The notes under the pieces: generated by a model
The model's database searches: none
Seen by the model: the letters and a program-made list of their open reading frames with translations, nothing else
What the model was told of the DNA's origin: nothing
Shown here: piece after piece, positions 4,177 to 20,168 of the stretch
Layout: each line of letters begins with the position of its first letter
How positions within the stretch are numbered: the stretch's first letter is position 1
Made by a program: the position numbers and the translations under genes
Assembly (NCBI GenBank): GCA_039961635.1
Contig: JABRWB010000011.1
Location: 1 to 38,941, forward strand
Source: a bacterium
GTDB taxonomy: Bacteria; 4484-113; JAGGVC01
DNA length: 38,941 nucleotides
Direction of reading: 5' to 3'

Positions 4177-5409
4177 GTGAATAATTTCGTGAATCACGCT
4201 ACACCGAATTCGGGCCGTACCGAGATTGAGATCGAATATCTCATGCCGGGAATGGTTCTCGCGTCGGACATATTCGACGGCGACAACGTTCTGCTTCGAA
4301 GCGGCACAGCGGTCACGCAGGAATTTCTGAACAGCCTCAAGCGGCGCGGCGTGGAAAAAATCGTGGTTTCCGACGCGGTGGCGGCCGACATCAAGGTGCA
4401 ACAGTCCACGATGATGGGCGGCGAGACCGCAGCGAGGCCCGCGCTTGACATACCGGAGCATTTGGAAACGGAGCTGGCCGCGAATGAGCGGGACATCCTT
4501 TCTAGCGCGGGAGTGGAAACCGCGGTCGAGGAGCAGCTGCTTCTCGAAACCAGCGAGTGCGTCGAGGATGTTTTCTCCCGCCTGAACGAGGGCAATCTGG
4601 AAAGCCTTAACGCGCTCAAGGGGCCGGTATCCGAGATGATCAAGCAGTCCGTTTCCAAGCCGCACGCCGCGGTGAAGCTTCTTGACGTGGAGCACTTCGA
4701 CCAGTACACATTCAGACACTCGGTGAACGTCGGGCTGATTTTCTTCACGGTCGCAAAGAGCCATTTTCCCGCGGAGGAACTTGAAGAGCTGATGCTCGGC
4801 GCGATTCTTCACGACGTGGGAAAAGTCAAAATCCCACGGGAAATCATCCAGAAGGAAGGGCCGCTGACACGCGAGGAATTCGCGCTGATGAAGAAGCACC
4901 CGGAGTACGGCGTTGAAATGCTAAAGGACTATCCGGGGCTCTCCGAAAAGGCTCTCGATATCGTTTTGTCTCATCACGAGCGCTGGGACGGGCGGGGCTA
5001 TCCGAACGGGCTGCTGGAGGACGAGATAACCTGGATCGCGCAGATCGCGATGGTCTGCGACGTGTACGACGCGCTGACAACGACGCGCAGCTACAAGGCC
5101 AAGATGGACTTCCACGCGGCGATGAGCATAATCGTCCAGGGCTCGGGCTCCCACTTTTCAAAAAAGAGCGTGCGCGCTCTTTGCACCACGCTTGGACTGT
5201 ACCCGCTGGGCACGTTCGTCCTGCTTTCCGACAGAACGGTGGCGGTGGTGAAGCAGGTGAACGAGGACGCTTTGGCGAGACCCATCGTGACCGTCATCTA
5301 CAACGAAGACGGCACAAAGCTCCCCGCGCCGCGCGATTTGAACCTGGCAATCACTCCGGACTTGTCCATCATCAGGCCGATTACGGTCCACAAGCTCGGC
5401 GCGCATTGA
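4177..5409 (+). CDS. HD-GYP domain phosphodiesterase (first of a tandem pair)
   Basis: HD-GYP proteins usually hydrolyse cyclic di-GMP and so control the switch between motility and attachment. In this 410-residue protein the N-terminal ~70 residues form a small beta-rich domain (M-V-L-A-S-D-I-F-D-G-D) like the DUF3391-type leader common in this family. A helical linker follows, then the catalytic core with H212-D213 (ILHDVGKVKIP) and H-H-E-R-W-D-G-R-G-Y-P around 266-276. There is no receiver domain or membrane segment, so it is probably cytoplasmic. The start is GTG at 4177, 9 nt after a TAATAT box; GTG at 4189 is an alternative. A close paralog follows at 5535. The pilB/pilT genes later in the window are a plausible output, but that link is inference. 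Confidence 0.87.
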   Translation: MNNFVNHATPNSGRTEIEIEYLMPGMVLASDIFDGDNVLLRSGTAVTQEFLNSLKRRGVEKIVVSDAVAADIKVQQSTMMGGETAARPALDIPEHLETELAANERDILSSAGVETAVEEQLLLETSECVEDVFSRLNEGNLESLNALKGPVSEMIKQSVSKPHAAVKLLDVEHFDQYTFRHSVNVGLIFFTVAKSHFPAEELEELMLGAILHDVGKVKIPREIIQKEGPLTREEFALMKKHPEYGVEMLKDYPGLSEKALDIVLSHHERWDGRGYPNGLLEDEITWIAQIAMVCDVYDALTTTRSYKAKMDFHAAMSIIVQGSGSHFSKKSVRALCTTLGLYPLGTFVLLSDRTVAVVKQVNEDALARPIVTVIYNEDGTKLPAPRDLNLAITPDLSIIRPITVHKLGAH

Positions 5410-5534: not shown

Positions 5535-6722
5535 ATGACCTCCGACAAAACCAAAAGCGGATTCGTCGAAATCGATGCAAGCGCGCTCAAGTCCGGCCAG
5601 GTGCTGGCGAGCGATGTTTTCGACGGGGACAGCTTGCTGCTTCGGGCCGGCACCAAAATTACCGACGGCTTTTTGGCCGCGCTTCACAAGCGCGGAATCA
5701 CGCGGGTTGAAGTGTCGGGCGAAACGGCGGGGATGCTCAAGTCGCGCGCCGGCGAGGCCTCCGGCAAGGACTCTCTGGAAGCGGAAAGGCATACGCTCGA
5801 GCTGATTGAGGAATCCGGTATTCAGCTTTCGGTCGATCCCGAAGTGCTTGAGGAAGTGTCCGACTGCATGGAGGACGTGTTCACGCGCCTGACGCAGGGG
5901 ATGCAGGTGGATTTGAATATAATCAAAGCCCCGGTCGCGAAGGCGATCAGCCAGTCGCTTTCCCGTCCGAACGCGGCGATCAAGCTTCTCGACGTGAAGC
6001 ACTACGATTTTTACACCTTCGGCCATTCCGTAAACGTCGGGCTGCTTTTCCTCGCGCTCTGCCGCGACCAATTTCCTGCCGCCGAAATCGAAAAGCTCGC
6101 GATGGGCGCGGTCCTCCACGACATCGGCAAAACCAAAATCCCGCTCGAAATAATCCGCAAGCCGGGGCCGCTGGATGCGCATGAATGGAATCTTATTAAA
6201 AAGCATCCTGAATTCGGAGCGGAGATACTGGAGGAGCATGGCGGATTCTGCGAGGAGGCGGTCTGGATTGCGCACCAGCACCACGAGCGCTGGGACGGGG
6301 GGGGATATCCTCGAGGGCTGAAGGGCGATGAAACACACCTTGTCGGCCAGCTTGCGGCGGTGTGCGACGTTTACGACGCGCTTACGACGACGCGCAGCTA
6401 CAAGCCGAAGATGGAATTCCACGACGCGATGAGCATAATCGTTCAGGGATCGGGCACCCAGTTCTCCCCCCGTGCGGTGAGAACCATTTGCTCCACGGTC
6501 GGGCTGTATCCCGTGGGAACCTTCGTTATGCTGTCGGACGGCAGCGTGGGCGTTGTGCGCGCGGTTAACGCGATGGTGCTTGTGCGCCCGGAAGTGATGC
6601 TGCTTTACGACGAAAGGAAACGGCGCATAGCCCCGCCAAAAAGACTTTCGCTCGAATCTTCGCAGGATTTGACCATCGCGCGCCAGCTCACTTCGGCCGA
6701 AGTCGGCGCGATGCGCGGCTAG
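5535..6722 (+). CDS. HD-GYP domain phosphodiesterase (second of a tandem pair)
   Basis: This 395-residue protein has the same architecture as the preceding gene: a small N-terminal domain (V-L-A-S-D-V-F-D-G-D), a variable linker, then the HD-GYP core with H195-D196 (VLHDIGKTKIP) and R-W-D-G-G-G-Y-P ending at P259. The C-terminal ~100 residues (D-A-L-T-T-T-R-S-Y-K, then I-I-V-Q-G-S-G) are nearly the same in both proteins, while linkers and N-termini differ. This indicates a tandem duplication with divergence of the input part. The expected activity is hydrolysis of cyclic di-GMP. A run of eight G (6297-6304) encodes the Gly-Gly of the GYP motif. It has its own upstream promoter. Confidence 0.87.
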   Translation: MTSDKTKSGFVEIDASALKSGQVLASDVFDGDSLLLRAGTKITDGFLAALHKRGITRVEVSGETAGMLKSRAGEASGKDSLEAERHTLELIEESGIQLSVDPEVLEEVSDCMEDVFTRLTQGMQVDLNIIKAPVAKAISQSLSRPNAAIKLLDVKHYDFYTFGHSVNVGLLFLALCRDQFPAAEIEKLAMGAVLHDIGKTKIPLEIIRKPGPLDAHEWNLIKKHPEFGAEILEEHGGFCEEAVWIAHQHHERWDGGGYPRGLKGDETHLVGQLAAVCDVYDALTTTRSYKPKMEFHDAMSIIVQGSGTQFSPRAVRTICSTVGLYPVGTFVMLSDGSVGVVRAVNAMVLVRPEVMLLYDERKRRIAPPKRLSLESSQDLTIARQLTSAEVGAMRG

Positions 6723-8574: not shown

Positions 8575-10590
8575 TTATGTTCTGGTTGTGTACGCGATTA
8601 TCAGTTCCTCGACGCGGCTTATCGGAATCGTGCCATGGTCGATCACATGGTCGTGGAACAGTTTAAGCGTGAATTTGCTCCCCCACCTTTCCCTCAACCG
8701 GTCGCGAAGCTCCAGCATCAGGTGCTTTCCAATGACATAGCTCATCGGCTGGGTCGGAGTCTGACAGTAGCGCCGCACCTCCGCTTCGGCGTTGGGGCGT
8801 TCCAAGTGCGCCTTTTCCACGAGGAAATTTACGGCCTGCTCGTAAGTCATATCCCTGGTGTGGAGCGCGACATCGATCATCACCCTGCATGCCCGCCAGA
8901 GCTGGTCTTTTAGCTGGAACAACCTTACCCTGGGATCGGTGTAGAAGCCCTGCTCGTACATCATCTCTTCGCAGTAAAGCGCCCAGCCCTCCGCGAATAC
9001 GCTGGTGTGGTGCATGTGACGGAAGATGCGCCTTTTCTGGTTGGCGCGCGTGAGCTGCAGATGGTGGCCGGGATAGGCCTCGTGCAGCGCGGTGACGACG
9101 ATGCCGTACTTGGAGTGGCCTTTCAGCTGCTCTTCGGCGCGGTCCTTGGGAGTTCCCTTCGCAACCGTCGTCACCCAAAATATTCCCGTTTGATCGGCTT
9201 CGTACATTCCCGGCGTCAGGTAAGCCGCGTACGGGATCAACGGACGCGCGAAGTCCGGAGTTTCGACCACCTTGATTTGCTCCTTGGGCGGGAAGGACAC
9301 AAGGTCTTTTTCGATCACGAACCTGCGCGCGCGCGCCATTTCTTTGGCGTAATAGTCAACCAGGCCCGCGTTGGACGGATGTTCATCCTTAAGCGTCGCG
9401 ACGATTTTCGTCCAGTCGCGGCGCTTGTCAATTTGCTTCGCGGTGGCGGCGAGCTGGTTGAGCGTGTTTTTGTAGATCTTTTGCCCCAGCTTGTACAACT
9501 CGTCCGCGTCGAACGGAACTTCGTGGTACTTCTTGAGCTTGTTGTTGAACCGGCGCGCGCCGGCCTTCCATTCCCCATTGCTGCGGGGCAGAAGGTCGGT
9601 CTTCATCCATTCGATGTAATTATCGAGCGACCTGACGGCAGCATCGCACGCATCGCGCAAACGCTTGGCCTTGGAGGAAGCCAGCTTTCCCGCGAATTCG
9701 CGCACCGTCGTGTCGAAAAAGACGCGCGCGCCTTGCGCGCTCAGAATCGCGCTCTCCGTAAAGATGCGCGGCGGATTGTCCAGGTTCCGCATGCCGAAGA
9801 GAAGCTGTTTGGGCAGTTTCTCGGTGCGGGCTATTATCCCGTTTGCGCGGGACAGCAAATCTTTCCCGCCGCGCGTGAGAACCGAGTAGATGCCGTACAT
9901 CGGCTCGGAGAAGTACATGGATGGCGAGCGGCGCCAGTGGGGGCGGTCTCGAAGCTCTTCCAGCTCAAGTTCGATCTGGTTTTTTCCGATTTCCAAATCA
10001 ACCCGGTTGTCGGCGGACAGATCGTCCGCATTGACCATCTTCAGCTCTTCCAGCGTGTTGGACAGCACGCGTTCCCAACGCAGGAACCATTGAAGCGAAG
10101 GCTTCGAAAGTTTCGCATCGTACTCGGGCAGTCCCATATAGGTGCCGTATGTCGGGAAAAACTTGTACACGTTGTGCTCGTATTCGCGGCAAATTCTGCG
10201 GAACATCTTGTCGGCGGCCGTCAGCTTTCTGCGCCTTGGCTTGGGAAATCCTTTCACTATTCCCGGCGGCCTGCCGCGCTTGCGCTTTTCCTGCACAACC
10301 CCGGCCTCCGGGAGAGGATGCTTGCGCGGGCGGCCGCGTCCTCTCTTGGCTTGCTGCGCGGATTCGACTGGAAGAGGATGCTTGCGCGGCCTGCCGCGCT
10401 TGCGTTTTTCCGGCGGTTCCGCGGCGGCGAGCCGCTTTAGTTTGCCGGTTCCCGGCGGCCTTCCTCGACCGCGCTTTTGCGCGGTTTCCGAAACCGCAGG
10501 CAAGGGATTTTTACGCGGACTTTCCCCCTTTCGCGCGCCGGATACCGACGCCGGTGCGCCGGAGGATTCAGTTTTTTTGACTTTAGGCAT
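8575..10590 (-). CDS. DUF885 metallopeptidase with four N-terminal AT-hooks
   Basis: This 671-residue protein has two parts. Residues 1-125 are basic and unstructured and carry four AT-hook cores (R-G-R-P) at 42-45, 65-68, 85-88 and 105-108, embedded in a ~20-residue repeat with R-K-H-P-L-P; AT-hooks bind the minor groove of A/T-rich DNA. Residues ~130-671 are a DUF885 domain, a family related to zinc carboxypeptidase-like gluzincins. It has the signature H-E-A-Y-P-G-H-H at about 503-510 and E-G-W-A-L-Y from 534 as probable metal ligands. AAGGAGG just before the ATG at 10590 fixes the start; the frame is open further upstream. Most DUF885 proteins I know of are secreted or plain cytosolic and lack such a tail. 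There is no signal peptide, so this one should stay inside, possibly on the nucleoid. Confidence 0.85.
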   Translation of the reverse strand: MPKVKKTESSGAPASVSGARKGESPRKNPLPAVSETAQKRGRGRPPGTGKLKRLAAAEPPEKRKRGRPRKHPLPVESAQQAKRGRGRPRKHPLPEAGVVQEKRKRGRPPGIVKGFPKPRRRKLTAADKMFRRICREYEHNVYKFFPTYGTYMGLPEYDAKLSKPSLQWFLRWERVLSNTLEELKMVNADDLSADNRVDLEIGKNQIELELEELRDRPHWRRSPSMYFSEPMYGIYSVLTRGGKDLLSRANGIIARTEKLPKQLLFGMRNLDNPPRIFTESAILSAQGARVFFDTTVREFAGKLASSKAKRLRDACDAAVRSLDNYIEWMKTDLLPRSNGEWKAGARRFNNKLKKYHEVPFDADELYKLGQKIYKNTLNQLAATAKQIDKRRDWTKIVATLKDEHPSNAGLVDYYAKEMARARRFVIEKDLVSFPPKEQIKVVETPDFARPLIPYAAYLTPGMYEADQTGIFWVTTVAKGTPKDRAEEQLKGHSKYGIVVTALHEAYPGHHLQLTRANQKRRIFRHMHHTSVFAEGWALYCEEMMYEQGFYTDPRVRLFQLKDQLWRACRVMIDVALHTRDMTYEQAVNFLVEKAHLERPNAEAEVRRYCQTPTQPMSYVIGKHLMLELRDRLRERWGSKFTLKLFHDHVIDHGTIPISRVEELIIAYTTRT
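10261..10476 (-). repeat. Tandem AT-hook coding repeat (about 60-bp unit)
   Basis: The AT-hook region of the DUF885 gene is built from a unit of roughly 60-69 bp encoding K-R-x-R-G-R-P plus, in the middle copies, R-K-H-P-L-P. The two central copies are close at the DNA level (both contain GGATGCTTGCGCGG on the plus strand). A vestigial R-K-N-P-L-P at residues 26-31 suggests an older fifth unit. Copy number could change by recombination. Confidence 0.65.
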
Positions 10591-10612
10591 ATCAGCCTCC
10601 TTAAGGATGCAG

Positions 10613-10627
10613 CCCCGCTTCGCGGGG
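10613..10627 (-). promoter_or_regulatory. Leader stem-loop before the DUF885 ribosome site
   Basis: CCCCGC-TTC-GCGGGG forms a perfect 6-bp stem with a 3-nt loop. It lies between the predicted promoter and the AAGGAGG site of the DUF885 gene, without a T-run. It may affect mRNA stability or translation. Confidence 0.3.
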
Positions 10628-10634
10628 TATGCGG

Positions 10635-10662
10635 ATAGTACCACGAATGAAGAATAATACAA
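10635..10662 (-). promoter_or_regulatory. Candidate promoter of the DUF885 gene
   Basis: On the minus strand TTGTAT (10657-10662) and TACTAT (10635-10640) are separated by 16 bp in an A/T-rich stretch, about 45 nt before the start. The match is moderate. Confidence 0.35.
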
Positions 10663-10730
10663 AGCATATGTCTTCTTGCCATAAAATCGCAATCATTAAA
10701 AAATCGAATATTCGTTGCCGCGAAAAGCTG

Positions 10731-11573: not shown

Positions 11574-14411
11574 ATGCCATACATCCGTGTTTATTTAATA
11601 TCTGCTTTGATTTTGATTGTGGCGCTTTCGGCGGCATGCTCCGCCGGCGGCCGCAGGGGCGCCGGGCAAAAGCCGGGGCTAGCGTTGATCCCGTTCCAAT
11701 CCGGCGATCCATTCGGGGAGCTTTCCAAACTGGAGCCGCCCGCAGGTGCGGATCCCGCGGTATTCGAATTGCTTCGCGGGGAGCTTGAGAAGGCGCTTAA
11801 AGGCGCAGGGAAGCTGCGGGCATCCTCCGCCGCGCCGACCCTGACAGAAAGCAAAGTGATGGATTTGGCCTACTTGGACGACGGCGACGGCACTTACAGC
11901 CTGGCTTGGACATACCGCAACAAGGGCGACTATGACCAAAACGGAGAAGTCGGCGTTTCGGACATCACGCCGATTGCGCTCAATTTTCTGGAAAGCGCGT
12001 CCGACGAAGGCCCGCAGGATCCGGATATGGTGGTTGACGGAGACGGAAACGGCGAAATCGGCGTGTCCGACATCACTCCAATCGCAATCAACTACCTGAT
12101 AACGGTTGCCAAGTACAAAGTTGAAGGATCCGCCAACGCGAACGGGCCGTTCCAGGCGGCGGGCGAAATCGCGCTTCCGAACGCGACGCCAGGCGGCTGG
12201 TTCACCCCGATCTCATTCGATTTGGGCGCCACTCCGGCGTTCGAATATTATCGCGTCGTACCCGACGACGGGAACGGCCACAGGGGCATCCCGTCCAACG
12301 TGGCGTCCAAACCTGCGCTGAACCTTCCGCCCGATATCACTTCCGTTTCTCCGCTTTTCGCGCAAACCGGAAGCAATGTAACGTTCGTGGCGGAAGTGAC
12401 CGGGGACGCGCCGCTCGTCTACGCGTGGGACTTCGCGGGCGGGGCCACACCCGGTACATCAAGCGAGGTTTCGCCGACTGTCACAATCGGCGACGTCGGC
12501 ACCTACTCCTGCACGCTCACCGTCACCAACGATTTCGGAGAAGACGTTTTTCCGTTCACGCTTCAGGCGACCCTGGGCGCACCGCCGAATATTTCGGGAG
12601 TATCGCCCCTGTCATGCCAGACGGACGTAGACGTGACATTCACCGCCACCGTCACCGGCGAAGCGCCGCTTTCATACGAATGGGATTTCGGGGGCGGAAC
12701 CACGCCAGGAACCAGCACGGAGGCGTCACCGACCGTGCATTCCGGCGCAGTCGGCACCTACGATTGCACGCTCACCGTGACAAACTCGATCGGCAGCGAT
12801 TCATTTCCGTTCACGCTCGAAATTACGGAGCTGCCGCCCCCGCCGGTGATTCTCGACGTTCAGCCGCGGGAGGGTAACGAAGGCGAGGTTGTCACTTTCG
12901 TCGCGACAGTCGAGGGCACAGGCCCGTTCACGTATCTGTGGGATTTCCGCCCGGCGTGCGTGCCCGGACTCTCCACCGCCGCTTCGCCGGACATCACTCT
13001 GCAGACGCCCGGAACCTGGCCCGTCACGCTTGAGGTTTCCAATGCCGGCGGAAGCGACGCATTCGGATTCCAACTTACGATTGTCGATACCACGATTCCG
13101 CCTTCAATCCAATCCGTCGCTCCGACCAGCGGCGAAGAAGGAACCAACATCACCATCGCCGCGACAATAAACGGTCCCGGCCCGTTCACCTACAACTGGA
13201 ATTTCGGCGGCGGAGCTGCGCCCAACAGCTCCACCGAAGAATCGCCGACCATCACCCTCGGCGCGCCCGGCGAATACAACGCAAGCCTGTTCGTCACGAA
13301 CGCTTTCGGAAACGACAGCTACCCGTTCACGCTGACTGTCACCGCGATCGGCCAGAACTGGACGACTTACACCGTAGATAATTTCGGGATGAGCGAGCAT
13401 CCATCGCTTGCGATTATCGGCGGCAATCCGTGCATTGCATATTACGACGGCCAGAACGAAGACCTTGTGTTCGCATCCTGCAACGCGGCCGACGGAAGCG
13501 GAACCTGGACTTCCTATCCGGTTGACCAGCTCGCGAATCCCGGCGACGAGGTCGGGCGGCACTGCTCGCTCGTCTCGATAGGGGGATTGCCCGGAATCAG
13601 CTACCACATCGGCGGCGCGGACAGCGATTTGAAGTACGCCACCTGCGACGCGGCCGACGGAAGCGGCACCTGGAGCAAATACACTATTGACTCCGACGGC
13701 AAGACGGGGATGTACACCTGCGCGGCCGAGGTCGGAGGAAGGCCGGCGATCAGCTACGTGAACGCGCAAACCGGCGATCTGAAATACGCAATTTCCGACA
13801 CCGCGGATCCATCGGGATCATGGACGAATGTGATTGTGGATTCGGGCGACGTCGGTGCGTGGAATACGGTGCTGCTTTTGTCCGGAGGGGTTCCGGTGAT
13901 CGGCTATTACACTAACGACGGCGGCGGCGAATACAAAACCGCGACCGCGGACACGGCGGACGGCACGGGGAGTTGGACGATCCGATCCGTGCAGTCCGTC
14001 GGCGGCGGATTCATCGGAAGCGGCAGGCATATGGCGGCGGTCAATTCCACAATCGCGTCCGCGTTTTTCAACTTCAACGACACAAGGCTGCGCTTCGCGA
14101 TAAACGGCGCCGCCGATGCGTCGGGAAGCTGGACGTTCCGCGATGTCGACGCGCTGGGCAATTCCAGGCAGCATGTCAGCCTCGCGGCGGTGGGCGGACT
14201 GCCGTCGCTCGGCTTTTTCGACGTGACGTCTCTCGGTCTGTGGGCGGCCTGGTGCGACGCGGCGGACGGAAGCGGAACATGGACTGTCGAGCCGGTGAAG
14301 GCGGGGATCAATGTAAACTACACTTCGGTCGCGGAAGTGGACGGCAGGATCGGCATCGCTTATTACGACGTTTCGGCCGGCCAGCTTAAACTTGCCGTCC
14401 GAAATCCGTAA
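11574..14411 (+). CDS. Large lipoprotein: EF-hand pair, four PKD domains, seven propeller repeats
   Basis: This is a 945-residue surface lipoprotein with signal peptide and lipobox (L-S-A-A-C, residues 18-22). Two dockerin-like calcium loops follow, starting at D119 and about D155 (D-x-D/N-x-N-G-E then S-D-I-T-P-I-A). Four PKD domains span about 254-592, each with P-x-x-Y-x-W-[D/N]-F-x-G-G and Y-x-x-x-L-x-V-[T/S]-N. From 594 to the end there are seven repeats of ~48 residues beginning S-G-[T/S]-W and containing G-x-P-x-I-[A/S]-Y-[Y/F]. Seven such units would close one seven-bladed beta-propeller. No catalytic motif is visible; binding or adhesion is the likely role. A full-length paralog follows 70 nt downstream. 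No cohesin gene is present, so a cellulosome-type role is not supported. Confidence 0.85.
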   Translation: MPYIRVYLISALILIVALSAACSAGGRRGAGQKPGLALIPFQSGDPFGELSKLEPPAGADPAVFELLRGELEKALKGAGKLRASSAAPTLTESKVMDLAYLDDGDGTYSLAWTYRNKGDYDQNGEVGVSDITPIALNFLESASDEGPQDPDMVVDGDGNGEIGVSDITPIAINYLITVAKYKVEGSANANGPFQAAGEIALPNATPGGWFTPISFDLGATPAFEYYRVVPDDGNGHRGIPSNVASKPALNLPPDITSVSPLFAQTGSNVTFVAEVTGDAPLVYAWDFAGGATPGTSSEVSPTVTIGDVGTYSCTLTVTNDFGEDVFPFTLQATLGAPPNISGVSPLSCQTDVDVTFTATVTGEAPLSYEWDFGGGTTPGTSTEASPTVHSGAVGTYDCTLTVTNSIGSDSFPFTLEITELPPPPVILDVQPREGNEGEVVTFVATVEGTGPFTYLWDFRPACVPGLSTAASPDITLQTPGTWPVTLEVSNAGGSDAFGFQLTIVDTTIPPSIQSVAPTSGEEGTNITIAATINGPGPFTYNWNFGGGAAPNSSTEESPTITLGAPGEYNASLFVTNAFGNDSYPFTLTVTAIGQNWTTYTVDNFGMSEHPSLAIIGGNPCIAYYDGQNEDLVFASCNAADGSGTWTSYPVDQLANPGDEVGRHCSLVSIGGLPGISYHIGGADSDLKYATCDAADGSGTWSKYTIDSDGKTGMYTCAAEVGGRPAISYVNAQTGDLKYAISDTADPSGSWTNVIVDSGDVGAWNTVLLLSGGVPVIGYYTNDGGGEYKTATADTADGTGSWTIRSVQSVGGGFIGSGRHMAAVNSTIASAFFNFNDTRLRFAINGAADASGSWTFRDVDALGNSRQHVSLAAVGGLPSLGFFDVTSLGLWAAWCDAADGSGTWTVEPVKAGINVNYTSVAEVDGRIGIAYYDVSAGQLKLAVRNP

Positions 14412-14481: not shown

Positions 14482-17322
14482 ATGAAAGGACTGCGTTTTT
14501 ATGCGTTATTAACATTCGCCGCCTATGCGGCTTTCTTTGTCGCATGCTCCGGACAGTCGGTATCCGGAAAATTGAGCGGAGCGTCCGGTTCCCCGCAGAC
14601 GCAGAGACTTGATGCAGCGATTGAAGAACTTATGTCTCTCGAAGCCCCCCCCGGAGCGGATGCCGACGTTTGGAGCCAGCTAAAGTTCGCCCTCGCCGAC
14701 GCGCTCAAGGATCTCGGCAAGGACAGGTTCGTATCGATCGCTCCCATCGGCACAGCCAGCCGGGTGCCCGACCTGTCCTACGAATCGGACGGCGACGGCA
14801 CTTTCACGCTTAAATGGACATACCGCAACCACGGCGATTACGACCAGAGCGGCGAAGTGGGGATATCCGACATTACACCGATTGCGCTCAACTATCTTCA
14901 ATCCACTACCGACGAGCCGCTGGTGGATCCCGACGAAGTGATAGACGGCGATTTCAGCGGCGAAGTCGGCGTTTCCGACATCACGCCGATAGCCCTCAAT
15001 TTTCAGTCGACTGTTGCGAAGTACCTGATCGAAGGCTCCAACAACGCCGGCGGCCCGTGGACGGCCGCGGGCGAGGCGCCGTTCCCGGTCGGCCAGATTC
15101 CGTTCTGGTTCCGGCCTTTCAGCTTCGACCTCGGCTCCGCGCCGGAATTCGACTTTTACCGCGTCGTCCCCGACGACGGCCAAGGAAACCGCGGCATTCC
15201 GTCGAACGTCGCCGCGCGCCCGGTCGTTCCAATCGCGCCCGACATCATTTCGGTGTCGCCGCTTTTCGTCCAGGCGCAGACCCAAGCGACTTTCACCGCG
15301 GTGGTGGAAGGCGACCCGCCGCACCTGTATACCTGGAATTTCGGAGGCGGTGCTTCGCCGAACACGAGCAACGAGCCCGCGCCGACCGTCACCGCGGGCT
15401 CGGTCGGCATCTACTCCTGCACCGTCCGCGTATCGAACGGCATCGGGGAGGAAACGTTTCCGTTCACGCTCGAAGTCACCCCCGGCGCGCCGCCGGATAT
15501 CACGTCCGTCTCGCCCCTCTCCGCGCAGATGGGACAGCAGGTCACCTTCACGGCATCCGTAACGGGCGACCTGCCGATGACGTATGCCTGGGATTTCGGG
15601 GGGGGAGCGACTCCGGACACGAGCGCGGACGAGTCCCCGACCGTCAACGCGGGCGACCTGGGCTCTTACGACTGCACGCTGACGGTCACGAACGCCAGCG
15701 GAAACGACGTGTTTCCGTTCACGTTCCAGGTGACCGAGCTGCCCGCTCCTCCCGTCATTTTCGACGTCCAGCCTCAATCGGGGCAGGAAGGCGAAATAAT
15801 TACCTTCAACGCGACGGTGGACGGCGCGGGGCCGCTGACCTACACCTGGGATTTCGGGGGGGGCGCTGCACCCAACACGTCAAGCGAAATTTCGCCGCAA
15901 GTCACTCTCGGAGCGCCGGGAACTTATCCGGCGTCGCTAGTGCTTTCGAACGAGGCCGGAAACGACACGTTCAACTTCGATCTCACAGTCAACGCGAATC
16001 CACTTCCGCCGGATGTGATTTCGGTTTCGCCGACTTCGGGCATCGAGGGAAACAACGTCACCTTCAGCGCTGTTGTGACGGGCACGCCGCCGTTCACGTA
16101 CGCTTGGGATTTCGGCGGCGGGGGGACTCCGGATACATCCGGCGAAGAATCGCCGCTGGTCACGCTCGGTCCGGCGGGCGTTTACGATGCCAGCCTGACG
16201 GTGACGAACGCGCAGGGGGAAGACATCTTCGATTTCTCGCTTACGGTGAATCCGCCCGGTCAGGACTGGTCGGTTTACATTGTCGCTGACGGGGGGGGAG
16301 GCGAGTACGCGTCGCTGGGCGTGTTCGGAGGCAAGCCGTGCATCGCGTACTACGACCCCGGCGAGGAAGACCTGATGTTTGCATACTGCTCGACCGCGGA
16401 CGGAAGCGGGACTTGGACTTCGACTACAGTTGACTCGAAGGGAATGGGGCTGGGCGACGTCGGGCGATACTGCTATCTTGCGAATATGGGCGGCGTGCCT
16501 GGAATAAGCTACTACGAGGGCGGGATCGACGGCAATTTGAAGTACGCCGAGAATGCAAGCTCGGACGGCACGGGCACGTGGTTCAAGTACACGATAGACT
16601 CGACGGGCGACGTGGGAATGGACACAAGCTGCACCAAGGTTGGCGGCAGACACGCGTTCGCGTACTACGACGCGGACAACGGCGACCTCAAGTACGCGCG
16701 CGCGAACACTACGAATCCGGGGGGAACTTACACTAAAGTAACCGTGGATTCGGCCGGGGATGCAGGCTGGAGCACGACGCTTCTCGTTGCAGGCGGAAAG
16801 CCGGTCATCGGCTATTTTGCCGACGACGGCTCGACGGTGAGCTACAAATTCGCTTACGCGAACGATTTCGACGGAACCGGAACCTGGACGAAAACGACGG
16901 TGCGCGACGTGCAAAGCGGCCTATTTGCTTACGGCCACTCGCTTTGCGTAGTGGGCTTCAATCCCGCTGTCGGACTTTACAACTGGGGCAACGGCATACT
17001 CGAATACGGCGTAAACGCGCAGCAGGACGGCTCCGGAGCGTGGACTTTCCATGACGTGGACGGGCAGACCAACATCAGCCTGTTCCTCGGCATGGCGGAG
17101 GTCGGAGGGCTGCCCGCGATTGCGTTCCGGGATTTCGACGCGGGAGGCCTGTGGGCTGCGACATGCGACACAGCCGACGGGAGCGGGACGTGGAGCACGA
17201 GCGATATAGATTCAACCGGCGGCCTCGAGTACGCCTCGGTCGCTTCGGTTGACGGCGGCAGGATCGGCGTCGCGTACTACGACAGCGGCGCGGACTCGCT
17301 CAAGTTCGCGATACACGATTAG
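14482..17322 (+). CDS. Large lipoprotein, full-length paralog of the preceding gene
   Basis: This 946-residue product has exactly the same domain order as its neighbour. A lipoprotein signal ends F-V-A-C; EF-hand loops start at D119 and ~35 residues later; four PKD domains cover about 254-590; seven W-T-containing ~48-residue repeats run from about 592 to the end. Motifs match closely (S-D-I-T-P-I-A-L-N, D-F-G-G-G-A-x-P, A-D-G-S-G-T-W), while loops and the second half of several blades differ, consistent with an old tandem duplication. Three runs of eight G lie in frame at PKD or linker glycines (15598, 15856, 16291). GGGGG before TAAAAC-ATG serves as ribosome site. Likely outer-membrane or cell-surface and calcium-binding; the ligand is unknown. 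Confidence 0.85.
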   Translation: MKGLRFYALLTFAAYAAFFVACSGQSVSGKLSGASGSPQTQRLDAAIEELMSLEAPPGADADVWSQLKFALADALKDLGKDRFVSIAPIGTASRVPDLSYESDGDGTFTLKWTYRNHGDYDQSGEVGISDITPIALNYLQSTTDEPLVDPDEVIDGDFSGEVGVSDITPIALNFQSTVAKYLIEGSNNAGGPWTAAGEAPFPVGQIPFWFRPFSFDLGSAPEFDFYRVVPDDGQGNRGIPSNVAARPVVPIAPDIISVSPLFVQAQTQATFTAVVEGDPPHLYTWNFGGGASPNTSNEPAPTVTAGSVGIYSCTVRVSNGIGEETFPFTLEVTPGAPPDITSVSPLSAQMGQQVTFTASVTGDLPMTYAWDFGGGATPDTSADESPTVNAGDLGSYDCTLTVTNASGNDVFPFTFQVTELPAPPVIFDVQPQSGQEGEIITFNATVDGAGPLTYTWDFGGGAAPNTSSEISPQVTLGAPGTYPASLVLSNEAGNDTFNFDLTVNANPLPPDVISVSPTSGIEGNNVTFSAVVTGTPPFTYAWDFGGGGTPDTSGEESPLVTLGPAGVYDASLTVTNAQGEDIFDFSLTVNPPGQDWSVYIVADGGGGEYASLGVFGGKPCIAYYDPGEEDLMFAYCSTADGSGTWTSTTVDSKGMGLGDVGRYCYLANMGGVPGISYYEGGIDGNLKYAENASSDGTGTWFKYTIDSTGDVGMDTSCTKVGGRHAFAYYDADNGDLKYARANTTNPGGTYTKVTVDSAGDAGWSTTLLVAGGKPVIGYFADDGSTVSYKFAYANDFDGTGTWTKTTVRDVQSGLFAYGHSLCVVGFNPAVGLYNWGNGILEYGVNAQQDGSGAWTFHDVDGQTNISLFLGMAEVGGLPAIAFRDFDAGGLWAATCDTADGSGTWSTSDIDSTGGLEYASVASVDGGRIGVAYYDSGADSLKFAIHD

Positions 17323-17907: not shown

Positions 17908-17996
17908 CTTTGCTCCCGGCCAAGGCGCGGCCGCGCGCGGATTGTTAATGCCGGGTGGAAATGTTACCATCCTTCGGCTTTTCCGGAAATCGCCTT

Positions 17997-20168
17997 ATGC
18001 ATAGAACCTCCTTATTGTTTTTCGTATTGGCCTTCGTTTGCTGCGCAGCCGTTTCCGCGCCCGCCGTCGCGCAGGAAGACCTGCCGTCGGTTTGGGATCC
18101 GTCGGTGTTCATCGGAAGCCGGGAGATTAAGCCCGGAATGACCGGAATCGCCAGAACCGTCATTTTCGGCTCGCGGATTGACGAATTCCAGGTGACGGTG
18201 ATCCAGGTCGCGCACAACCGAGGCTTCAACAACCGGGCGATGCTGCTATGCCGCGCCGAAGGATGGGCGGTGGATTTGACCGGCGGAATCGCGGGCGGGA
18301 TGAGCGGGAGCCCGGTCTACTTCGACGGACGGCTTGGCGGCGCCATATCCGGCCACTGGAGCATGACCGATCAGAAAACCTGCATCGTAACGCCGATAGA
18401 CCAGATGCTGCGAAGCTGGGAACCGGCGGACGCCCGGTTCGCGCCGTTCGACCTCGCGCCGGCAGGAACCGCGTTCGACTGCGGGCCGTTTTTGGATGAC
18501 CTTGCCTATCCGTACAAATCGCCCGGCGAACCCGGCGCAGGCTCCGCAGCCGGACGGGGAAACGGAAACGATTCGCCCGGAGCAATTGAATATGAAACAT
18601 ACGACTTTGATTCGCCCGTAGAATTCTCCGGTGTCGAATTCACCGGAATGAGAGTCGCGGAGCGTCCGGGATTCGCTCCGCCCGCCGCGCCGGGCGTCCT
18701 TTCGATGAGCCTCGCCGCCATGCCGCTGTCCGTATCTTCGTCCGACCCGCGGATCGCGGAGCGGTTCGCGGAAGCGTTCGGCGCGGATCCAGCGTTCGCG
18801 CTGGAGTTGGGGCTTCCTTTTTCGGGGGGGGAGGAATACGCGACGCCTCAATCCGTGATTGAATCGCTTACGGGCGTCGTGCCGGATGCGATTCTGGAGG
18901 AGCTGCGGTATCCGTCCAATCTGGCCGGGCCGAGGATTCTGGAGCCGGGGTGCGTCCTGGGCGTCAAGATGATCCGCGGCGACCTGGGCGCGGGCGGCTA
19001 CGGCACGCTCACCTATGTGGACAACAACGGAAACTTCCTAGCGTTCGGCCACGCGTCGGGGCGCGATGGCTTCGTTACCGAGCCCGCGACGAACGGCGTG
19101 GTCTATTACGTTCCGGCAAGCTGGCAGCGCGCGGGCAAGCGCGCGCTCACGCTGGACACCGTGGGCACCGTATTCCAGGACCGCGGCGGCGCGATTGCCG
19201 GACGGTTCGGCGTCGGCCCGGCGTGGATTCCCGTGAGCGTGCGCAACACCGACGCGCAGACGGGAGAGTCGACGCTGATTGAGTGCGAGGTGCTGGACAA
19301 TCCCGATTTGACCGCGCAGCTTGCCGCGGGCGTAGTCGGCGCGGGACTGGGCTACCTGAGCGACCGCGCCGCGGGCGGAACCGTATTCGCGACCATATCG
19401 GTTGACCTCGGCGGTTTGGGCAAGTACATCTGGGAGACCGCGTACCTGGGCGACTGGGGAATGTCCGCGGGTTCTTCGGAAGTGAGCTCGTTTCTTTCCG
19501 TAGCGCTTCGAGGCGAAGGGGAGGCGGCCCGCGTCGCGTCCGTCTTCGCCGAATCCACGGTTTACCCGGAGCGAAAAAGCTTCAGAATCGACGAAGCACG
19601 GCTGCTTAAGAAAGCCGAGGCGGCGAAGCTTGAAATCCCGGATGCCGGATACTTCGAATTCCCCGCGCAAACTTCGTTCGAGGATGCGTTTCCCGACGTG
19701 AAAGCGCAGAAGATAGACGGCGACAAGCTGGAAATCGTTCCCGACCCAACCGGCAAAATCAACCTGCTGATTGAAATCGCGCCCTGGCATTCGGACAAAA
19801 CGCGCTGGCTGCCGGTCAGCCTGCGCGTGCCGATTGCCTTCCCGCGAAAGAACGCGCGGCTTCAAATTTGGGGCGGCGGCGGAATCGCGCCCGCGGTCGA
19901 ATCCGGCGACCTTGCGTTCGAGGACGCGCAGGCCGCGTTGCGCAAGCACATCCAGCCCGAGCGCTCCGCCGAGGGCGGCAAGCGCGTCTGGCTGGAAAAA
20001 CAGGCGCGCGCGCCGCGCGGGATGCATCTCGTCGTCGAGCTGGTTTACGCGGACAAGCCGGAGGATGCGGACGTGTCCGCGGCGGACGACCTGCCTTTCG
20101 TCCGGAAGCTGGTAGAATTGGACGGCGTCGCGCTGGGGTACCTGGCCGGGGAAGGGCCGCTCCGGTAG
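17997..20168 (+). CDS. SpoIVB peptidase S55 domain-containing secreted protein
   Basis: From the ATG at 17997 the product has 723 residues and a clear Sec signal ending A-V-A-Q near residue 25; the frame is open from 17955. Near the start, P-G-M-T-G-I-A-R-T-V precedes G-G-M-S-G-S-P-V-Y-F-D-G around S103/S105, the nucleophile region of S55 (SpoIVB-type) serine peptidases. Later, G-T-L-T-Y-V-D followed by F-L-A-F-G-H (H352) matches the second conserved block of the long family members. The C-terminal ~250 residues look like beta-sandwich material. SpoIVB in Bacillus is a sporulation signalling protease; in diderm bacteria this longer family is uncharacterised, so a periplasmic regulatory protease is inference. 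No sporulation gene is nearby. Confidence 0.75.
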   Translation: MHRTSLLFFVLAFVCCAAVSAPAVAQEDLPSVWDPSVFIGSREIKPGMTGIARTVIFGSRIDEFQVTVIQVAHNRGFNNRAMLLCRAEGWAVDLTGGIAGGMSGSPVYFDGRLGGAISGHWSMTDQKTCIVTPIDQMLRSWEPADARFAPFDLAPAGTAFDCGPFLDDLAYPYKSPGEPGAGSAAGRGNGNDSPGAIEYETYDFDSPVEFSGVEFTGMRVAERPGFAPPAAPGVLSMSLAAMPLSVSSSDPRIAERFAEAFGADPAFALELGLPFSGGEEYATPQSVIESLTGVVPDAILEELRYPSNLAGPRILEPGCVLGVKMIRGDLGAGGYGTLTYVDNNGNFLAFGHASGRDGFVTEPATNGVVYYVPASWQRAGKRALTLDTVGTVFQDRGGAIAGRFGVGPAWIPVSVRNTDAQTGESTLIECEVLDNPDLTAQLAAGVVGAGLGYLSDRAAGGTVFATISVDLGGLGKYIWETAYLGDWGMSAGSSEVSSFLSVALRGEGEAARVASVFAESTVYPERKSFRIDEARLLKKAEAAKLEIPDAGYFEFPAQTSFEDAFPDVKAQKIDGDKLEIVPDPTGKINLLIEIAPWHSDKTRWLPVSLRVPIAFPRKNARLQIWGGGGIAPAVESGDLAFEDAQAALRKHIQPERSAEGGKRVWLEKQARAPRGMHLVVELVYADKPEDADVSAADDLPFVRKLVELDGVALGYLAGEGPLR

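Follow-up and report, generated by a model that had tools for sequence, protein, structure and literature searches.

An AT-hook-tailed DUF885 metallopeptidase of an uncultured bacterial class and its possible tether to the nucleoid

Introduction

Few bacterial proteins have AT-hooks, and among these the transcription factor CarD has been studied best. One gene of the window, by which is meant the whole 38,941-nucleotide stretch analysed here (contig JABRWB010000011.1 of assembly GCA_039961635.1, GTDB lineage 4484-113; JAGGVC01), encodes a protein in which a tail with four AT-hooks precedes a metallopeptidase domain of the DUF885 family, for which we know of no substrate. This raises the question of what a tail of the DNA-binding type does on a peptidase. 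In the literature consulted, nothing was found on the function of DUF885 beyond its placement in a zinc peptidase clan, and no description was found of a DUF885-family peptidase held on the chromosome. An initial annotation, made from the DNA alone, had suggested a peptidase tethered to A/T-rich DNA that could turn over DNA-bound proteins or work close to promoters.

Gene structure and AT-hook tail

Translation placed the gene at 8575-10590, the positions first annotated, on the minus strand (Table 1). The comparison of start codons favours ATG1, with its strong AAGGAGG, over the internal start near residue 125 that had been considered at the outset, and the internal candidates TTG30, GTG99, GTG112, ATG129, GTG141 and ATG152 have no comparable Shine-Dalgarno sequence at normal spacing. 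A longer reading from a TTG, with a signal peptide, was rejected as well, as the promoter-like sequence and the hairpin lie in that stretch and the Shine-Dalgarno sequence serves the ATG at 10590. The leader hairpin matched no Rfam family, and the folding of the leader as a whole (z = -1.5) is not significant by itself.

Table 1. Positions of the AT-hook-tailed DUF885 gene and its elements in the window
Feature	Position	Strand	Basis or remark
AT-hook-tailed DUF885 metallopeptidase, whole gene	8575..10590	-	671 aa + stop; ORF and translation, Pfam
DUF885 (PF05960) catalytic domain, residues 146-663	8602..10155	-	Pfam; high-confidence helical model
EGWALY, residues 534-539, putative third zinc ligand E534	8974..8991	-	E534 invariant
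HEAYPGHH, residues 503-510, putative zinc/catalytic motif	9061..9084	-	invariant H503, E504, H510
Disordered basic tail with four AT-hooks, residues 1-125	10216..10590	-	composition, start-codon test, AlphaFold pLDDT
AT-hook 4 RGRP, residues 105-108 (KRKRGRPPG)	10267..10278	-	motif
AT-hook 3 RGRP, residues 85-88 (KRGRGRPRK)	10327..10338	-	motif; PF02178 single-site 15.7 bits
AT-hook 2 RGRP, residues 65-68 (KRKRGRPRK)	10387..10398	-	motif; PF02178 single-site 15.7 bits
AT-hook 1 RGRP, residues 42-45 (KRGRGRPPG)	10456..10467	-	motif
Shine-Dalgarno AAGGAGG	10596..10602	-	5 nt before ATG at 10590 (AAGGAGG-CTGAT)
Leader hairpin CCCCGC-GAA-GCGGGG	10613..10627	-	upstream of ribosome-binding site
Promoter-like ATGGCA-17-TATTAT	10654..10682	-	match to consensus scan alone

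The tail (residues 1-125) has 20 arginines and 18 lysines (together 30%), 8 glutamates and no aspartate, with a net charge of +30, and contains the four RGRP cores first noticed in it, at residues 42, 65, 85 and 105, with a spacing of 23, 20 and 20 residues. RGRP occurred 0, 1 or 2 times in 20,000 shuffles of the tail's own residues, never 3 or 4; the hooks are not due to chance. In a codon comparison of the four 15-residue units, KRGRGRP is encoded in both hook 1 and hook 3, and five of its seven codons are synonymously different between them; hooks 2 and 3 agree at 12 of 15 positions and show five synonymous differences. The remaining two reading frames of the tail DNA are interrupted by stops, and the third-position GC differs modestly between tail (0.63) and core (0.76). 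Since the hooks keep their peptide over synonymous change and the other frames have stops, the tail reads as a translated, constrained repeat, and an untranslated tail or an internal start was discarded on the start signals of ATG1 together with the synonymous divergence of the hook repeats.

The AT_hook profile (PF02178) matched four stretches, with a protein score of 9.3 bits and a best single site of 15.7 bits, both below the curated cut-off of 17.4, so the name AT-hook is assigned here by motif and not by Pfam membership. With four RGRP, the protein shows the several GRP cores with basic flanks that characterize AT-hook proteins. Eukaryotic HMGA has hooks of the KRGRGRPRK type, about 20 residues apart, in a disordered chain, and the tail is similar in hook type, spacing and disorder. 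Unlike HMGA, there is no acidic C-terminal tail (0 D, 8 E, net +30) and a DUF885 domain follows the hooks. A PDB sequence search for HMGA peptides gave no match.

DUF885 domain and putative zinc site

The DUF885 domain was annotated as complete, with HEAYPGHH and EGWALY, and this held: PF05960 was matched over profile positions 1-531 of 532 (E 3.3e-109; 367.3 bits against a cut-off of 32.4), with the motifs at residues 503-510 and 534-539. In a Pfam scan of the whole protein at E<=10, DUF885, a weak PIN match and AT_hook were found and nothing else. The residues H503, E504, H510 and E534 are invariant across 30 homologues. As first read, the 671-aa protein has no hydrophobic N-terminal segment or signal peptide. 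In an AlphaFold model built from the 30-homologue alignment, pLDDT is about 30 at residues 1-110, below 50 at residues 1-114 and above 90 over nearly all of the core.

Foldseek found three solved DUF885 structures, 3U24, 3O0Y and 3IUK, with TM scores of 0.62-0.68 by query length, in which the disordered tail is counted; for 3U24, E was 1.8e-24 and TM 0.65/0.78. These have the same full-length domain and fold and the same invariant H-E...H and E-G-W as the window protein; the descriptions of 3U24 and 3O0Y call them lipoproteins, whereas the window protein has no signal peptide and carries in addition the 125-aa AT-hook tail. The protein is probably an active zinc peptidase, because the putative zinc-site residues are invariant and a published analysis predicts a zinc site in DUF885 and assigns it to the Peptidase_MA clan (PMC12572635). 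A far weaker Foldseek match was human ACE (E 8e-4). ACE-like enzymes of this clan usually take oligopeptides. From the weak ACE likeness and general knowledge of the clan, we infer that oligopeptides would be taken rather than folded proteins. The initial suggestion that DNA-bound proteins could be turned over thus finds no support, the core being a DUF885 fold with weak ACE likeness, of oligopeptidase type.

Orthologues and homologues

The window genome belongs to a small, uncultured class, in which nine other genomes (G001-G009) were compared. A DUF885 orthologue is present in eight of them, G003 (85% complete) having no match, and AT-hooks are absent from all eight orthologues. The closest relative, 64-65% identical, is the G001 protein, which has a short lysine-rich leader and no AT-hook, so the hooks would be recent and could be dispensable. 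Tails of other kinds are present in the class. Three orthologues have histone-H1-like Lys/Ala/Pro tails: that of G002 is N-terminal and about 225-250 aa long (+41 over the first 250 residues), and those of G007 and G008 are C-terminal, of KPAA type and 227 and 229 aa long (+48 and +54, respectively), with length and charge kept between the two. The KPAA-type Lys/Ala/Pro repeats, looser in G002, are absent from the window protein. Short basic leaders were found in G001 (+10 in 31), G005 (+5 in 23) and G009 (+10 in 24), and neither a basic tail nor a leader in G004 and G006. Counting the window protein, four of the nine class orthologues have long tails of the DNA-binding type, of two kinds and at both termini.

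In the tree, the window protein pairs with that of G001, and G002 and G007/G008 fall in another family. As the three types of long tail lie apart in the tree, long tails probably arose repeatedly, at least three times to judge by type and position, and a short basic leader common to the class may predate them. A metagenome-assembled genome labelled Planctomycetales (JAHEFU010000148.1) has a DUF885 gene identical to that of G008 and falls inside the class of the window; its label may be wrong.

In a wider comparison, the best 80 named homologues from 84,980 species were collected, and the N-terminus was inspected in 76. None of these 76 N-termini contains RGRP, and among those from outside the class none is a long basic tail including a credible start codon. 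The order of AT-hook and DUF885, for which a search had been suggested, was thus found in no other protein of the class or among the 76. A C-terminal extension outside the class was found once, in a protein from another phylum (L022 of G091), of 124 aa and non-basic, which may be a separate domain. Plasmid-borne homologues, among the ten matches listed, were below 30% identity and started at query residue 111 or later, and were discarded.

Genomic context

The AT-hook array was found only in the DUF885 gene of the window genome; AT-hook tails as a genome-wide habit were rejected, the other AT-hook matches being in short frames unlike genes. In a set of 78 ORFs from the window and the loci of the orthologues, DUF885 proteins have the most basic termini of low hydrophobicity, and the other basic entries are mostly spurious-looking frames. 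The KPA codon pattern, among the matches listed, clusters only in the DUF885 tail of G007 and in a single KPAA protein of G002 that stands alone. These observations are suggestive of a tail specific to DUF885 within the class, with a sensitivity bounded by the search for proteins with H1-like tails, which missed the known tail of G008. The stand-alone protein of G002 (L166, contig C21, ~49.8-50.6 kb, + strand) is histone-H1-like, with KPAA repeats (MADEKTGSKMTSAAKPAAAKPAAK...) and 57 lysines in 218 aa.

The window has a GC content of 59%. A/T hexamers occur at 26 per kb between genes vs 6 per kb inside, about four times denser. AT-hooks would thus have sites between genes, also for the suggested action near promoters, and the GC content does not speak against them. 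The genome had been called GC-rich, which holds only mildly.

No operon partner conserved across families, and none tying the gene to DNA processes, was found. The mnmA gene adjoins the DUF885 gene in family f4 only. In G009 only, lon (L173, 416-2938, + strand) is convergent with the DUF885 gene, and its own C-terminus is basic. The window also encodes, on the + strand, two related HD-domain (HD-GYP-like) proteins in tandem (4177-5409 and 5535-6722) and a 737-aa protein (17955-20168) that matches part of the SpoIVB S55 peptidase domain (E 2e-12) in no obvious sporulation context. Additionally, two tandem paralogous secreted proteins (11574-14411 and 14482-17322, + strand) have repeated PKD domains, as found by Pfam in the first, together with a dockerin-like motif DYDQNGEVGVSDITPIALNFL in duplicate; in G006 and G007, too, relatives of these proteins are encoded close to the DUF885 gene.

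Discussion

Tails of both kinds have precedents in bacteria. In most species the tail of CarD is HMGA-like, with three or four AT-hooks, whereas the orthologues of A. dehalogenans and V. incomptus have an H1-like tail instead (PMC9304148). The CarD of Myxococcus is like the window protein in its disordered basic tail with four RGRP and in the interchange of AT-hook and H1-like tails between orthologues. The two types of domain are, by the report of Garcia-Heras et al. (2009), functionally equivalent. Unlike in CarD, the tail of the window protein is N-terminal, without an acidic region, and the folded part is a peptidase and not the RNA-polymerase-binding domain. In Pseudomonas, AlgP and PhaF have C-terminal KPAA tails that bind DNA and without which granule spacing is lost, with nucleoid tethering proposed as the means of granule positioning (PMC9239181). 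This type of tail is that of the G007 and G008 orthologues and, more loosely, of G002; the window protein differs in having AT-hooks and not KPAA repeats, and an enzyme as cargo. Similarly, the H1-like tail of actinobacterial HupB is needed for nucleoid association, and similar PAKK/KAAK motifs are found on Ku and topoisomerase I (PMC5676037). There, as in the DUF885 orthologues, a bacterial protein that is ordinary in its other parts has gained an H1-like tail; however, HupB, Ku and topoisomerase I already act on DNA, whereas DUF885 has no known link to it.

Here it is proposed that the gene encodes a cytoplasmic DUF885 zinc oligopeptidase whose N-terminal tail is a multivalent, A/T-preferring minor-groove anchor to the nucleoid, a reading to which we give slightly less than an even chance. 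The tail would bind nucleic acid, as motif and precedent suggest, and would prefer the A/T-rich minor groove, to judge from RGRP, with plentiful sites between genes. The enzyme would thereby be held at the nucleoid, a step strengthened by the H1-like replacements in orthologues, and would cleave peptides locally with its apparently intact putative active site. Its substrates would be short peptides or unfolded termini that are generated at the chromosome, perhaps by ATP-dependent proteases bound to the nucleoid, and not folded DNA-bound proteins. Some tether is likely, and one to DNA has indirect support because orthologues carry two kinds of DNA-binding-type tail at two ends; this support for the initial annotation comes more from the tails of the class orthologues than from the window alone. 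A broader version, in which DUF885 is a dedicated chromatin-tethered peptidase throughout the class, its orthologues having repeatedly acquired HMGA-like or H1-like anchors at either terminus for cleavage on the chromosome, is possible but rather doubtful.

Because AT-hooks bind RNA too (PMC11354804), the tail could have partners other than DNA, and the main rival is a general polyanion anchor to RNA, ribosomes or polyphosphate granules, with DNA incidental. Besides RNA binding by AT-hooks, this would fit the net charge of the tails (+30 to +54) and the sister K/A/P tails, which resemble that of AlgP, a protein that localises to polyphosphate granules (PMC9239181). Four spaced RGRP with basic flanks, however, exceed plain charge and fit the minor-groove motif, and their conservation is not needed for charge alone, so that we consider such an anchor unlikely, if a serious candidate.

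The tail may instead be a near-neutral, fast-changing low-complexity extension with no localising role, or with an effect on solubility only. The lack of hooks in G001, the varying type and end of the tails and their absence from G004 and G006 point that way; against this, tails recur on DUF885 in the class and not on the readable homologues elsewhere, length and charge are maintained in G007/G008, and the hook peptide is maintained over synonymous change, which makes a neutral tail distinctly improbable. A DNA-bound regulator or scaffold, with the metallopeptidase domain used for protein contacts, would have its model in CarD, which has four RGRP and works only with CarG, a zinc protein with an inactivated metzincin-type motif (PMC8156234). 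In CarG the catalytic E is replaced by Q, whereas the putative ligand and catalytic residues of the window protein are intact and invariant in the 30 homologues, and the CarD_CdnL_TRCF domain (PF02559) was not found in it by the Pfam scan at E<=10; a scaffold is thus very unlikely. That the true start lies near residue 126-129, with the tail untranslated, or that the tail is an assembly chimera, has hardly any probability, for although the Pfam domain starts only at residue 146 and ATG129 is present, AAGGAGG is ideally spaced at ATG1 with no such site at ATG129, the 125-codon frame is open and the repeat units differ synonymously.

The new element is the comparative pattern, in which the HMGA/H1 interchange known from CarD is found here on a metallopeptidase with no known role on DNA. 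That it occurs at both ends of the enzyme and in more than one lineage suggests that location, and not any particular sequence, is under selection. The proposed nucleoid anchor, if true, would be a first hint at what the large DUF885 family does in the cell, and one would then ask which peptides need cutting at the nucleoid. On the broader version, peptide cleavage on the chromosome would be a previously unknown function of the nucleoid.
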